Origin: Thermobaculum sp.
GTDB lineage: Bacteria > Chloroflexota > Chloroflexia > Thermobaculales > Thermobaculaceae
Assembly: GCA_016782125.1 (NCBI GenBank)
Contig: JADDPA010000170.1
Location: forward strand, 1-33,612
Direction of reading: 5' to 3'
Length of the DNA: 33,612 nucleotides
Made by a program: the position numbers and the translations under genes. Numbering within the stretch: position 1 is the stretch's first letter; each line of letters starts with the position of its first letter. This document shows positions 28,206 to 33,612 of the stretch, piece after piece. Under the pieces are notes generated by a model that did no database searches, was not told where the DNA came from, and worked only from the letters and a program-made list of their open reading frames with translations.

Positions 28206-28279
28206 ACGCGCCTTGCCTGATAAAGTGCAACGCGCGAGGGTGATAGTTGGGTAAAGGTACTGGTTTCTGGAGGTCACGG

Positions 28280-30007
28280 ATGCGGGCAGCGCCTGACGCG
28301 AGCACATTGGAGCGGCTTGCAGGTTTCGACGACTTCGCCCGTGCCGTTCGGGACCAGTGGCAAACACCTGGAGTCGCGATCGCTGTGGTAAGGGACGGAG
28401 AGGTCGTGTACGAGCATGCCCTCGGCGTGCGCGATGTGGCGCAGAACCTGGAGGTGACTCCACAGACCCTGTTCGCGATCGCCTCGTGTACGAAGGCATT
28501 TACGACCGCCGCGCTCGCGATCTTGGTGGACGAGGGACGCCTCGATTGGGATCTGCCGGTCCGTGAGTACGTGCCCTCTTTCCGCTTGCAGGACCCGCTC
28601 GCGACAGAACGAATCACCACGCGCGATCTCGTATGTCACCGCTCGGGCTTGCCTCGTCACGACCTGCTCTGGTACGGCTCAACGAAGAGCCGCTCCGAAC
28701 TGGTCCAGCGAATGCGCCACCTCGAGCGCAGCACGGACTTCCGTTCGACCTGGCAGTACCAGAACCTGATGTACATGACCGCCGGCTACGTGATCGAGCA
28801 GATCACGGGACAGAGTTGGGAGGAGTTTGTCCAGGACCGCATCTTCGCGCCGTTGAGCATGAACGGCAGTACGTTCGCGGTAGAGAAGTCCCGGCAAAAC
28901 CCGGACCATGCCCTGCCATACAAGCGGGAGCGAGATGGCACGGTGCACGAGATCCCATTCTACTCGCAGTGGGGCATCAGCCCGGCGGGTGGCATCAACT
29001 CCTCTGTGCGCGACTTGGCAAAGTGGGTCACGATGCACCTCAATGAGGGCCGGTGGGACGGGACGCAGGTTGTCTCGGAAAGCCAGGTGCGCGAGATGCA
29101 TACGCCGCAGATGGTGATGCCGCCAAACGACAAGTATCCGGAGTTGTTGCATCCAAGCTATGGCCTGGGATGGTCCATCCGGGGATACCGCGGGCACGAC
29201 CTGGTGCAGCACGGCGGCAACATCGACGGATTCGCATCGCTCGTTACCTTACTTCCTCGCGAGAACATCGGTGTGGTGGTGCTAACAAATCTGAATAGGA
29301 GCCCGGTCCCCTGGATCCTCAGCATGAGCATCTGCGACCGATTGTTGGAACTGCCGGAAGCGCCGTGGAATGACCGGGCACAACTGGAACACGACGAGAC
29401 TAAGGAAGCGCAGCGGCGGAGCGATGAGAAGGACACCGGGGACAGGAGAACGGACACATTGCCGTCGCACTCTATCGAAAACTACACCGGGGAGTACGAG
29501 CATCCTGCCTACGGGGTGATCGAGTTCGTACTCCGGGAGGGCGGGCCGCTTGTCCTGTACAACGGAATCGAGTTTCCGACGGTTCACTACCAGTACGATA
29601 CGTTCGTGGTGACACTGGAGCAGTGGGACCAGACCTTCAAGGCCACGTTCTCGACCAACGCGAGGGGCGAGGTTGAAAGCCTGCGAATCCCGCTCGAGCC
29701 TGAGGTGCGCGACATAAGTTTCGCCCGCTTGCCTGATCGCGCGCTCAGGGACCGTGAGTATCTGGAGCGATTCGCGGGGGTGTACGATCTTTCAGGTGAG
29801 ACCATGACGATCACGCTGAGAGATGACACCCTACGCGTACAGCTGCCACATCGTCTCCCCCTGGTGTTGGTCCCATCAAGAGAGAATCAGTTCACCGCGA
29901 AGGGCGTGTCTGGGTACGAGCTTGCCTTCGTGGTCGACGCCGAGGGCAGGGTAGTTGAGGCGACCATCACGCAACCGGGCGCGGTGCAACCCGCCAAAAG
30001 AATCTAA
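28280..30007 (+). CDS. Serine beta-lactamase-like hydrolase (class C / DUF3471)
   Basis: 575 residues from ATG 28280 with GGAGG 6 nt upstream; a TTG further upstream in the same frame is disfavoured. The penicillin-binding-protein fold motifs are SCTK (Ser69, Lys72), YQN (Tyr160) and HGG (His311, replacing KTG), the set found in class C-like esterases and DD-peptidases. The C-terminal about 170 residues, starting near YTGEYEHPAYGVIEF, form a DUF3471-type beta-barrel. No signal peptide is visible, so a cytoplasmic role is likely. Esterase or D-amino-peptidase activity is more likely than beta-lactam hydrolysis. Confidence 0.85.
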   Translation: MRAAPDASTLERLAGFDDFARAVRDQWQTPGVAIAVVRDGEVVYEHALGVRDVAQNLEVTPQTLFAIASCTKAFTTAALAILVDEGRLDWDLPVREYVPSFRLQDPLATERITTRDLVCHRSGLPRHDLLWYGSTKSRSELVQRMRHLERSTDFRSTWQYQNLMYMTAGYVIEQITGQSWEEFVQDRIFAPLSMNGSTFAVEKSRQNPDHALPYKRERDGTVHEIPFYSQWGISPAGGINSSVRDLAKWVTMHLNEGRWDGTQVVSESQVREMHTPQMVMPPNDKYPELLHPSYGLGWSIRGYRGHDLVQHGGNIDGFASLVTLLPRENIGVVVLTNLNRSPVPWILSMSICDRLLELPEAPWNDRAQLEHDETKEAQRRSDEKDTGDRRTDTLPSHSIENYTGEYEHPAYGVIEFVLREGGPLVLYNGIEFPTVHYQYDTFVVTLEQWDQTFKATFSTNARGEVESLRIPLEPEVRDISFARLPDRALRDREYLERFAGVYDLSGETMTITLRDDTLRVQLPHRLPLVLVPSRENQFTAKGVSGYELAFVVDAEGRVVEATITQPGAVQPAKRI

Positions 30008-30144
30008 GCACCGCTGTGGAACGCACGGCCGGGTCGCATGTCAGCTCCATACTCACGAAGCTCGACGCGACGAATCGAACGGAAGCCGTCACACGGGCCG
30101 CTGTTCGTGGGATCCCCAAACTGCCGGCGAAAAGAACCAAATGA
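30004..30144 (+). pseudogene. C-terminal remnant of a LuxR-type HTH regulator
   Basis: Starting inside the last codons of the beta-lactamase gene, in another frame, the bases read LSTAVERTAGSHVSSILTKL, then ATNRTEAVTRAAVRG and TGA at 30142-30144. This is the second half of a LuxR/GerE helix-turn-helix (usual form 'SxRTVxxHVSxILxKLxxxNRTEAVxxA'), with the recognition helix and dimer helix kept. The first helix and any receiver or ATPase domain are missing. No start signal is present, so it is a fossil. Confidence 0.65.
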
Positions 30145-30172
30145 GCAACTGGAGTTACGCTTCGCACGTGCA

Positions 30173-30201
30173 TTGACGGCGAATCGGCGGCGTGTTATCG
30201 T
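30173..30201 (+). promoter_or_regulatory. Promoter of the structured leader/ncRNA
   Basis: -35 TTGACG (30173-30178), 17-nt spacer, extended -10 TGT + TATCGT (30193-30201). It predicts a start at about 30208, 7 nt after the -10. It is the only convincing promoter between the beta-lactamase gene and the ABC exporter. Confidence 0.6.
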
Positions 30202-30207
30202 AAGAGT

Positions 30208-30454
30208 CGCGGATGGCACCTAATGTGGTGTAGCCGCCCATCGGAGTAGAAATGCATCGCTAGTATGGCCGGTGAAAGTCCTCAGCTTGGTCACATCTCA
30301 CGGGTGAGCCTTCAGGGCTTCACTGTTGTTGGGACGTGGCTGGGTGTAGCCCAGGTCCATACTGCATCCTTCAGTACAGCACAGGCGTAGCGCGCAACAC
30401 CAGAGATCCAGTAGGGCCGTGGGCGGTTGATCGGACATCGCCCACGGCCTTTTT
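30208..30454 (+). ncRNA. Structured leader or stand-alone RNA before the ABC exporter
   Basis: About 247 nt from a good promoter to an intrinsic terminator. Possible long-range closing helices: GGAT (30211) with ATCC (30406), and TGGTGT (30226) with ACACCA (30397). Local hairpins: GTGAGCC/GGGCTTCAC, GGGAC..CTGGG/CCCAG..GTCC, and TACTG/CAGTA. A competing pairing puts CCGCCCAT (30234-30241) against GTGGGCGG (30419-30426), the terminator's 5' arm, as an antiterminator would. Short ORFs lie inside: MAPNVV (30213), MHR (30252, behind GGAG) and a 41-codon frame from ATG 30265 that starts one base after the MHR stop. I see no T-box, 6S, SRP or known riboswitch core. It is either an attenuator for the exporter genes or an independent RNA. 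Confidence 0.5.
30415..30454 (+). terminator. Intrinsic terminator, 11-bp perfect stem plus T5
   Basis: GGCCGTGGGCG (30415-30425) and CGCCCACGGCC (30439-30449) form a perfect 11-bp stem with a 13-nt loop, followed by TTTTT. It lies 91 nt before the ABC exporter start and is the clearest terminator in the window. Confidence 0.85.
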
Positions 30455-30545
30455 GCGCGCTTCGTGAACATTTCCAAGAGCAGAGGCAGCAACGCCGGCG
30501 ACGGCCAAACACTGGCCGGACTCTGTGAAAAAGTGAGATGAATCC

Positions 30546-32342
30546 ATGTCAGGTTCAGGTGCGCCACTCGTACCGCGACGTCAATATCTAGACCTGCTGC
30601 TCGTCTACCTGCGGCCCCATCGCCTGCAGGCGGCGCTGCTCGCCGTGCTCCTGCTCACGACCACCGGTCTGCAGCTGCTCAACCCGCAGATCCTGCGGTA
30701 CTTCATCGACACCGCAGCCGAAGGGGGCGCAGTGCAAACGTTGCTCCTCATGGCAACCGCCTTCATCGTGGTGGCATTCGCCGGACAGGTGCTGAGCGTG
30801 TGTGCCACCTATGTGGGGGAGTGGCTGGGATGGACGGCAACCAACGCTCTGCGGGCCGATCTCGCGCAGCACTGCCTTGATCTCGACATGTCTTTCCACA
30901 ATGAGCGCACGCCGGGCGAGCTGATCGAGCGCATCGATGGCGATGTCACCACCCTCTCAAACTTCTTCTCTCGTTTCGTGATTCTCGTCGTCGGGAGCGG
31001 GCTATTGCTGATCGGCGTGTTGGTAATTCTGTTCTGGGAAGACTGGCGCGTAGGGCTCGCGCTTGCGTTGTTCGCGCTCTTTGCACTCCGAGTGCTGTGG
31101 CGGCTTCAGCACATCGCGGTACCGGCACTTGCCGAAGAGCGGCAGGCAACCGCGGAGTTGTTTGGCTTTCTTGAGGAGCGGCTTGCGGGCATCCGCGACC
31201 TGCGCGCCAACGGCGCGGGCGCGTACACCATGGGGCGGTATCACGTTCACATGCGAACCCTCTACCGTAAGGCGCGTAGAGCCTGGATGAGAGCCGAGAT
31301 CGTGTGGATGAGCACGACAATGCTGTTCGCCATAGGCTACGCGCTCGCGTTCGGCCTCGGTGCGCTGCTCTTCCGGGCAGACGCGATCACGATCGGCACG
31401 GTGTACCTCATCTTCCATTACACGGAGCTACTGCGCCGTCCGATTGAGGAGCTCTCCGGCCAGCTCCAGGACCTGCAGCGCGCCACGGCCGGCATTGGCA
31501 GGGTCAGAGAGCTACACGATACGCGCAGCACACTCCAAGACGGGCGGGGCGATCCCCTGCCGCCGGGACCGCTCGGCGTCGAGTTCCGGCACGTCTCATT
31601 CGGGTATAGTCCGGACGAGCTGGTGCTCAAGGATGTTTCACTACGCTTGGAGCCGGGCGAAGTACTCGGCCTGCTCGGGCGCACCGGCAGCGGCAAGAGC
31701 ACCATCGCCCGGTTACTGTTTCGACTGTACGATCCCTCGGATGGGGAAATTGTCCTGGGTGGCGTGGATGTGCGGCGAGTGCGCCTCGCGGAGCTACACG
31801 CCGCTGTCGGCATGGTCACGCAGCAGGTCCAGCTCTTCCAGGGTACAGTGCGCGACAACCTCACGCTCTTCACACCGAACATATCGGATGACCATATCCT
31901 GCACGTGTTGGAGGAAGTGGGGCTTGCTGACTGGTTCGCGGCCCTGCCCGACGGGCTCGACGGGCACCTTTCCTCGGGAAACGCCGGACTCTCTGCGGGC
32001 GAGGCACAGCTCCTCGCCTTCGCGCGCGTGTTTCTGCGCTCACCCCAGCTCGTTGTCCTGGACGAAGCATCATCGCGGCTAGATCCGGCGACGGAGCACC
32101 TCGTCGAGCAAGCCGTTGACCGGCTGCTGGAGGGCCGGACCGCGATTATCATCGCGCATCGGCTCGCCACCGTCGAGCGCGCGGATCGTATTCTCATCCT
32201 GGACGATGGACACGTGATCGAGCACGGCAGGAGGGAAGAACTGGCGAGAGATCCGAACTCACGCTTGCATCGCTTGTTGCGAACGGGCGAGACGATGGCC
32301 GCCGGAGCGGTGCCAGGTCGAGCGCCGGACCTGTTGAGCTAA
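30546..32342 (+). CDS. ABC exporter half-transporter (membrane + ATPase)
   Basis: 598 residues. Residues 1 to about 320 form a six-helix type IV exporter membrane domain. The ATPase domain has Walker A GRTGSGKST (Lys384), signature LSAGEAQ (about 482, diverged from LSGGQ), Walker B VVLDEAS (Asp506, Glu507) and His538 in the switch loop. The diverged signature fits one half of a heterodimeric exporter in which one ATP site is weak. The likely partner is the next gene, 12 nt downstream. Substrates may be drugs, lipids or peptides. The start is ATG 30546 with only a weak ribosome site. The stretch before it has an extra CGGCCA/TGGCCG hairpin and the structured RNA. Confidence 0.9.
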   Translation: MSGSGAPLVPRRQYLDLLLVYLRPHRLQAALLAVLLLTTTGLQLLNPQILRYFIDTAAEGGAVQTLLLMATAFIVVAFAGQVLSVCATYVGEWLGWTATNALRADLAQHCLDLDMSFHNERTPGELIERIDGDVTTLSNFFSRFVILVVGSGLLLIGVLVILFWEDWRVGLALALFALFALRVLWRLQHIAVPALAEERQATAELFGFLEERLAGIRDLRANGAGAYTMGRYHVHMRTLYRKARRAWMRAEIVWMSTTMLFAIGYALAFGLGALLFRADAITIGTVYLIFHYTELLRRPIEELSGQLQDLQRATAGIGRVRELHDTRSTLQDGRGDPLPPGPLGVEFRHVSFGYSPDELVLKDVSLRLEPGEVLGLLGRTGSGKSTIARLLFRLYDPSDGEIVLGGVDVRRVRLAELHAAVGMVTQQVQLFQGTVRDNLTLFTPNISDDHILHVLEEVGLADWFAALPDGLDGHLSSGNAGLSAGEAQLLAFARVFLRSPQLVVLDEASSRLDPATEHLVEQAVDRLLEGRTAIIIAHRLATVERADRILILDDGHVIEHGRREELARDPNSRLHRLLRTGETMAAGAVPGRAPDLLS

Positions 32343-32354
32343 GGAGACGCCTTG

Positions 32355-33612
32355 ATGAGCGGTTCCCCGCAATCGATCACACCAACATGGCGTGTACTCC
32401 TGCGCCTGGCTGGTTTCCCCCGCGGACTGTACGCAACCAATCTCGCGCTGTGGGCCCTTTGGTACAACATCCCGCTGGCGACAGGGTTGATCGCGCGAGT
32501 ATTTCGATGCGCTGACGAACGAGGCGCGGGCGGACTTCGGGATATGGACGCTCGTCGCCTTCATGGTCGGGATAGGCGCCGCGCACGTCGCCAGCTTTGT
32601 CGCCGCAATCTACGCGTTCCTTGTGTGGTGGTTCCATGGCGAGGCCCTGATGCGCAAGAACCTGCTGGACGCCGTGCTCCACGATCTACTCTCAGTCCCG
32701 GGGCTGCCTGATTCACCCGGCGAGGCGGTCAGCCGTTTCCGCGACGATGTGGACGCGGTGCTGGAGACGCTCGACAGCATTCTGGACACGCTGGGGCAGG
32801 GACTCTTCGCACTGGCGGCGCTCGGAGTGATGATCTCCATTAATCCCGCGCTTACCGCCGTTGTGTTCCTGCCCGTGCTCACGGCGGTGGGAGCGGCGAA
32901 CCTGCTGGGCACGCGCATTCAGAAGCGGCGTGCCGCAAGCCGCGCGGCGACCGGTCAGGTGACGGGCTTTATTGGTGAGATCTTCGGCTCCGTGCAGGCG
33001 GTCAAAGTGGCGTCCGCGACCCCGCACGTTATGGCTCGCTTCAAGACGCTGAACAACGCGCGCCGGGAGGCCGCACTGCGGGATAGCCTGCTCACCCGAG
33101 TGCTCGACTCGATCAACTTCAATACCGTTAACCTGGCCACGGGCCTCATGCTCTTGCTGGCGGCGCAGGTGATGCAATCGGGGCGGTTCACGGTGGGCGA
33201 CTTTGCACTCTTCGCCACCTATCTCAGCGGCGTGACCAGCTTTCCTCGGTGGATCGGCCGAGCATATGTACGCTACAAGCAGGCCAATGTGTCGATCGCT
33301 CGCATGACCGCGTTGATGGGTGGCGCACCCGGCCTCGCGATAGCCGCGCACGGGCCGGTCTATCTGCGTGGCACACAAGCTCTAACGCCCGTGCCCATTA
33401 GACAAAACCCGCAGCCCTTGGAGTGCCTCGATGCAAAGGGCCTCACGTATCGGTATGACGACGGGGGTCGCGGGATCGAGAACATGGATCTGCGCCTGCC
33501 GCGCGGTTCCTTCACGGTGGTGGTTACCGGCCGCATAGGCTCCGGCAAGACGACGATGCTGGAGGTCCTGCTTGGCTTAGAGCGAGTGAAGAAACGACTG
33601 AGGCGTGTGGCA
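32355..33612 (+). pseudogene. Second ABC exporter half-transporter, frameshifted and cut by the window end
   Basis: ATG 32355 follows AGGAG by 8 nt. The first 46 codons read NIPLATGLIA in frame, then the frame breaks at the CGCGCG run at 32492-32497. A frame two bases different reads EYFDALTNEARADFGIWTLVAFMVG and stays open with no stop to 33612, through a full exporter membrane domain and into Walker A (GRIGSGKTT). Loss of one CG from an original (CG)4 would give IAREYFDAL, the expected family text, so the lesion is a 2-nt slippage deletion. The text after Walker A (ERVKKRLRRVA) also looks odd. If the shift is real, the exporter pair is inactive. Confidence 0.75.

Follow-up and report, generated by a model that had tools for sequence, protein, structure and literature searches.

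The closest described relatives in mechanism of the element reported here are leaders with short upstream ORFs (uORFs). In Listeria monocytogenes, the rli53 leader of lmo0919 (vgaL) has a terminator in the 5′ UTR and a three-amino-acid ORF overlapping an anti-antiterminator, and lincomycin triggers antitermination (PMC8079631). The vmlR leader carries a tripeptide ORF, uORF(MIN), which is stalled by lincomycin (PMC9226507), and the leader tripeptides of cplR and VmlR2 are MR[I/M] and MK[L/Q], respectively (PMC10201436). Drugs whose action sets in immediately after initiation are those that stall such tripeptide ORFs (PMC8079631, PMC9226507). In Bacillus subtilis, bmrB-bmrCD is under ribosome-mediated attenuation by translation inhibitors, with one leader of 53 codons that contains the terminator (PMC4191407). 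Two leader peptides are found in the ermBL/ermBL2 system, where both are needed for induction (PMC8274638).

No report of such an attenuator from Chloroflexi/Chloroflexota was found in full-text literature searches of open-licence papers. The DNA analysed here (the window, 33,612 nt in all) makes up an entire contig (G000:C52) from a Chloroflexia MAG, and its positions 30173-30454 are probably a uORF-controlled, ribosome-mediated transcription attenuator of an ABC exporter operon.

Layout of the leader and its operon

The elements of the leader and the genes downstream of it, all on the forward strand, are as follows:

30173..30201, +, promoter kept in 5/5 leaders: -35 TTGACG (30173-30178), 17-nt spacer ending in TGT, extended -10 TGT-TATCGT (TATCGT at 30196-30201)
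30243..30246, +, Shine-Dalgarno (SD) GGAG of uORF1; a purine-rich SD stands at the same place in 5/5 leaders
30252..30263, +, uORF1 ATGCATCGCTAG, putative tripeptide M-H-R-stop, family consensus M-x-R-UAG, starting 5 nt after GGAG
30261..30268, +, helix A 5′ strand TAGTATGG, spanning the uORF1 stop and the uORF2 start
30265..30390, +, uORF2 MAGESPQLGHISRVSLQGFTVVGTWLGVAQVHTASFSTAQA-stop, 41 codons, 1 nt after the uORF1 stop (TAG-T-ATG)
30346..30358, +, candidate antiterminator strand GTAGCCCAGGTCC, inside uORF2; consensus GTNGCCCA...CC
30357..30364, +, helix A 3′ strand CCATACTG; pairing kept in the leaders, RNAalifold consensus
30415..30454, +, intrinsic terminator: 5′ arm GGCCGTGGGCG (30415-30425), 3′ arm CGCCCACGGCC (30439-30449), T5 (30450-30454)
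30546..32342, +, ABC half-transporter A, PF00664 + PF00005, with the usual catalytic Glu (LDEASSRLD)
32355..33612, +, ABC half-transporter B, frameshifted and running off the contig

The promoter, the leader RNA and the intrinsic terminator are real and conserved. The first-pass annotation had named a TTGACG/TGT-TATCGT promoter, about 247 nt of RNA, an 11-bp terminator stem with T5 and no other visible promoter for the exporter, and all four statements agree with the sequence; the 247 nt are counted from the TSS to the terminator. The site at 30173 is the sole sigma-70-like match within 29000-33612, a stretch for which 1.0 ± 1.0 such matches are expected by chance; the match alone is thus at chance frequency, and the promoter is credible because it is conserved. 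The family promoter reads TTGAC-N17/18-TGTTATNNT or near to that in all five known leaders, with the form TTGAC-N17/18-(TG)TTATNNT across them. No second promoter-like site was found between the terminator and the ATG of half-transporter A, which lies 91 nt 3′ of the terminator. The 5′ neighbour of the leader in the window (28247-30007) encodes a beta-lactamase-fold serine hydrolase with DUF3471 domains; a gene for a hydrolase of this fold also stands 5′ of the leader in G002:C86, and is not found there in G001.

Conservation and distribution

Related leaders were found at four other loci, each before the same ABC exporter gene, which gives five leaders (G000, that of the window; G001; G002; G002b; G003a) in four uncultured MAGs spanning two genera of one GTDB family; three of the leaders are close relatives. 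The sister genomes stand in GenBank as MAGs under the names Chloroflexia bacterium MGR_bin264 and YX1bin4. In two congeners the block from promoter to terminator is 89% and 76% identical to that of the window. The similarity to G001 (76%) spans the -35 box to the T-run, and the gene 5′ of it there encodes an unrelated response regulator; the block is therefore a discrete, selected unit. A profile search with three leaders detected G003a in another genus (L009) and a second locus in G002 (L008, G002b) with E-values of 4.5e-16 and 8.3e-12, and a transposase-like gene lies 5′ of this second copy. With a covariance model built from the five leaders, the members scored E 1e-29 to 1e-35 among 158 genomes of the class, in which nothing else fell below 0.0039 and the weaker matches were below significance. 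A pattern scan of 84,980 GTDB genomes returned the known loci and two chance matches only (L054 and L058, which are without a matching leader or terminator), and a scan of 400 genomes of the phylum yielded no new leader. The leader is a rare, family-level element that has always been seen before the same exporter. The earlier suggestion that an attenuator composed of promoter, leader and terminator precedes a bmrCD-like exporter is supported.

The contig JADDPP010000269.1 (L055), from a MAG that bears the name Rubrobacter sp. LC5_2, matches genome G003. This MAG is probably misnamed, as the collection places G003 in the Chloroflexia family of the window.

Two coupled uORFs

All five leaders have a three-codon ORF with its start, stop and SD. 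Its products would be MHR, MHR, MQR, MRR and MSR, each followed by the stop; codon 2 varies at all three bases, in the Arg codon only the synonymous third base changes, and ATG, CG and TAG are fixed throughout. This variation is codon-like, i.e. the pattern that a translated M-x-R-stop would leave. uORF2 has no SD of its own. All five leaders keep its frame open, for 40-41 codons and with a sole gap of 3 nt, and the peptide is weakly constrained (pN/pS 0.59-0.84); translation and not the product therefore seems to matter. This weak constraint, and the fact that another frame is also open in three of the five leaders, count against the proposed attenuator. Amino-acid attenuation by runs of codons was considered and rejected, since neither uORF1 nor uORF2 contains such runs. 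The first-pass annotation had pointed to three short ORFs, one of them behind GGAG and one a base after the previous stop, that could make the leader translation-sensitive; uORF1 and uORF2 recur in every leader, and this proposal is supported.

Terminator, antiterminator and helix A

An intrinsic terminator separates the uORFs from the main gene, starting 24 nt past the uORF2 stop (30390 to 30415), with a G/C-rich stem of 11 bp and a 13-nt loop. Its 5′ arm is invariant in the five leaders, whereas the 3′ arm differs at four positions, three of them kept as G-U and one breaking the pair. A constant 5′ arm with a drifting 3′ arm is what one would expect of a 5′ arm that pairs in two alternative ways.

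The candidate for the second partner is the GTNGCCCA block, which is invariant near the end of uORF2 in all five leaders. Among 190 aligned upstream windows, the nine that complement the terminator 5′ arm best all lie over GTNGCCCA, with a mean complementarity of -20.5 kcal/mol for the block and -16.0 kcal/mol for the next region. The GCCCA:TGGGC pairing of the antiterminator is kept 5/5, and mutation of the segment GTAGCCCA would be expected to disrupt the antiterminator. The first-pass annotation had proposed mutually exclusive terminator and antiterminator forms. The idea of such an attenuator has support, with a conserved complement, but the 5′ segment that was named, CCGCCCAT (30235-30242), has not: it pairs well in the window (-21.9 kcal/mol), is a good complement only there and in G002, and is lost in G001, G003a and G002b, whereas the conserved complement is GTAGCCCAGGTCC within uORF2.

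Two further searches were set aside. Counts of GGCCGTGGGCG as a genome-wide signal were mostly near those of the reversed control, save in G004 (38 vs 15), and are uninformative alone. Outside the leaders, ATGNNNCGNTAGTATG gave two more matches in seven genomes of the family, at the end of or inside other ORFs, which were taken as chance.

In the RNAalifold consensus the GTNGCCCA block lies in a long hairpin, the base of which (helix A) is formed by UAGUAUGG, at the uORF1 stop and uORF2 start, paired with CCRUACUG. Helix A has 97.5% of its cells paired, vs 22-53% for slid partners. Compensatory double changes, which had been put forward as a check, were searched for in helix A, the antiterminator and the terminator, and none occurs among the five leaders; the check is not decisive with five sequences in which most pairs do not vary, and helix A is without proof from covariation because nearly all of its pairs are invariant. 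In the consensus as a whole, a double change that keeps the pairing is seen, in one sequence or more, at 16 of the 64 pairs, and the covariation term is unfavourable (+1.28). The leader RNA shows no excess stability over shuffled sequence (MFE z = -1.34). Rfam gave no match at the gathering score in the window and none at E <= 5 in 30000-30560, known riboswitches and the T-box included, so that the earlier remark that no known riboswitch consensus is present stands; the accompanying proposal of a new RNA or riboswitch class is not supported, given the same lack of a match, the ordinary z and the missing compensatory changes in the key helices. The conserved bases of the leader coincide with the start and stop codons, with the Arg codon and with both the terminator and the antiterminator.

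Effect of a model ribosome on the switch

The switch was modelled by masking a ribosome footprint and computing the cost of opening the terminator 5′ arm, in comparison with 50 shuffles. With the footprint placed at each position in turn, opening the arm costs most with the ribosome on uORF1. As the mean of the five leaders, a ribosome on uORF1 adds 2.9 kcal/mol relative to one on uORF2 (shuffles 0.05 ± 0.52, 0/50 reaching the effect) and 2.3 kcal/mol relative to none (shuffles -0.06 ± 0.58, 0/50). For individual leaders the effect is clear in G003a (0/50), G002b (1/50) and G002 (1/50) and marginal in G001 (3/50); the two most divergent leaders show it most strongly. The window's own leader gives no significant effect (0.67 kcal/mol, reached by 16/50 shuffles; uORF1 minus none, -0.42).

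The opening cost replaced an earlier measure with mixed results: when a stalled ribosome was placed on truncated RNA, counts of the antiterminator went up in G000, G002 and G002b, were about unchanged in G003a and went down in G001. It counts against the switch that even without a ribosome the truncated RNAs of G000, G002 and G001 form the antiterminator. As to an overlap of the antiterminator and anti-antiterminator pairing with uORF1, the conserved complementarities and the significant five-leader effect stand against the lack of covariation and of significance for the window alone. The modelling supports the switch mechanism for the leader family and does not prove it for the window copy.

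The exporter and leaders of its relatives

Half-transporter B of the window is split by a frameshift relative to the G001 copy (ORFs 32352-32711 and 32563-end), and both ABC genes are frameshifted in G002:C86; sequencing error and decay cannot be told apart as causes. In G001, half-transporter B is intact (607 aa) and reads LLVFDD, with Asp replacing the catalytic Glu, as should be the case in the degenerate half of a heterodimer. Solved relatives of half-transporter A include BmrD (7m33_D) and TM_0288 (3qf4_B). Half-transporters A (LDEASSRLD) and B (LLVFDD in the G001 copy) together make a heterodimeric exporter in which one ATP site is degenerate, a trait of the targets of bmrB-type attenuators. 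The first-pass annotation had likewise compared the leader with the drug-responsive leaders of bmrCD-type exporters.

Paralogous exporters with a promoter, a leader and a strong terminator are found at L036 (upstream of 466, G003:C69), L037 (G004:C48) and L038 (G003:C110). L036 has a 23-codon uORF, MTSTTLPAHEDPRGSLKECAPFT-stop, behind GGAGG and the terminator GGCCGTGGACG...CTTCCACGGCC-TTTCT. In another family of the class, a conserved leader peptide, MQRT..PTACQS, of 21 and 20 aa stands before exporter homologues at L025 and L024 (G038, G060). At L016 and L021 (G040, G056) the leader ORFs MGQSLKSLVVENLFNES... and MLATTLKGHMIRRFFNES..., with purine-rich SDs, lie 5′ of the exporter, and repeated TTGAAG/CTTCAA segments could form an attenuating hairpin. 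In another family (L011-L013, L041, L042 and L047; G013, G019, G022), the promoters of the exporter homologues overlap near-palindromes, e.g. TTGGTTAGTT...AACTAGCTAACCAA, which suggests a repressor instead of an attenuator. Since other members are preceded by terminators or short leader peptides whose sequences are unrelated, attenuation may recur in the exporter family, as far as a brief look can tell, and leader-peptide control may be a recurring feature of it in the class.

Proposed mechanism and alternative explanations

In the attenuator that we propose, ribosomes would load at GGAG, translate uORF1 (M-x-R-UAG) and then reinitiate on uORF2 one base further on; both the translation of the uORFs and the reinitiation are presumed. 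When translation is unimpeded or absent, the antiterminator would be traversed by ribosomes or buried in the hairpin closed by CCATACTG; with the antiterminator unavailable, the terminator would fold and the exporter would be off. A ribosome stalled on uORF1 by an inhibitor would block the base of the hairpin, so that GTNGCCCA stays free, pairs with the terminator 5′ arm and allows readthrough of RNA polymerase into the exporter genes. The stalling agent would most likely be an inhibitor of early elongation or of the PTC, e.g. a lincosamide, pleuromutilin or streptogramin A, and the exporter would presumably relieve it. At the level of sequence, the proposal builds on the parts themselves, their conservation in five leaders, the complementarities and the model-ribosome effect. 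A more elaborate version, a two-stage sensor in which the stall on M-x-R-UAG is context-specific, occurring at Arg or during termination, and gates reinitiation on the antiterminator-bearing 40-codon uORF, is conceivable but rather doubtful; if true, its design would differ from that of the single tripeptide leaders of Firmicutes, and it would be the first antibiotic-type attenuator in Chloroflexota.

The leader might instead be a short stand-alone RNA, or a weak leader with an ordinary terminator, the exporter being expressed by constant leak-through and the ORFs being incidental. The ordinary folding energy, the strength of the terminator and the lack of covariation would suit this explanation, but conservation is highest in the start-stop signature of uORF1/uORF2 and in the antiterminator, the leaders all precede the same ABC gene, and no alternative promoter separates the terminator from the ATG, all of which make it improbable. 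An attenuator governed by the uORFs could also sense a cue other than a drug, such as charged tRNA-Arg, termination or RF1 efficiency at Arg-UAG, or the general rate of translation. We consider this quite improbable, given that uORF1 has a single Arg codon, unlike the codon runs of amino-acid attenuators, and that the target is an exporter and not a biosynthetic or amino-acid gene, even though the Arg codon next to UAG is the same in all leaders and codon 2 varies freely.

A ligand-binding riboswitch or a new class of structured RNA is very unlikely: a leader of 247 nt with a terminator, and the 16 of 64 consensus pairs with a kept double change, would be compatible with one, but Rfam gives no match up to E = 5, the covariation term is +1.28, and the conserved bases fall on codons and on the terminator and antiterminator, not on an aptamer core. 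That chance features of a G+C-rich intergenic region have been mistaken for a leader is scarcely credible. Promoter and terminator matches alone do occur at chance frequency, but chance would hardly preserve 76% identity with G001 where the flanks are unrelated, repeat the architecture in another genus and in a second copy, and give covariance-model matches so far above everything else in the class genomes.

Comparison with known attenuators

Like the rli53 leader, the window leader combines a terminator with a three-codon ORF at a putative anti-antiterminator, and no relation in sequence between the two was found (no Rfam match). At lmo0919, unlike here, the target is an ABC-F ribosome-protection protein, the host belongs to the Firmicutes and no second uORF for reinitiation has been described. 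With the vmlR, cplR and VmlR2 leaders it shares an SD followed by a uORF for a loosely constrained tripeptide; this uORF lies where an anti-antiterminator hairpin, putative in the window leader, has its base. Those leaders also sequester the SD of the main gene, and their targets are ABC-F proteins, whereas in the family of the window leader codon 3 is always Arg, and the candidate antiterminator lies in a second uORF of 40 codons. The main gene here is an exporter (PF00664 + PF00005) and not an ARE ABC-F or known resistance gene. The leader is therefore a look-alike of the rli53/vmlR/cplR leaders in mechanism, not a member of their family, as its target is not an ABC-F protein.

If this is true, tripeptide-uORF sensing controls an exporter in soil Chloroflexota; sensing of antibiotics in this way would be neither confined to Firmicutes nor tied to ABC-F proteins, and it would have arisen or spread in soil Chloroflexota. 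The leader would then also be an objective clue that an otherwise uncharacterised exporter family handles ribosome-targeting compounds, and the fixed Arg-stop allows inhibitors that stall at a minimal ORF to be tested.

The target is of the same type as bmrCD, which is a heterodimeric multidrug ABC exporter. Unlike bmrB, the leader has two uORFs, and its terminator lies outside the leader ORF (uORF2 stop at 30390, terminator from 30415). ermBL/ermBL2 differs from the window leader in that it is a translational attenuation of a methylase by erythromycin, and ermBL2 overlaps ermBL in another frame instead of starting past its stop. The best reading of these comparisons is that the leader would work like the rli53/vmlR/cplR tripeptide attenuators, on a bmrCD-like target.
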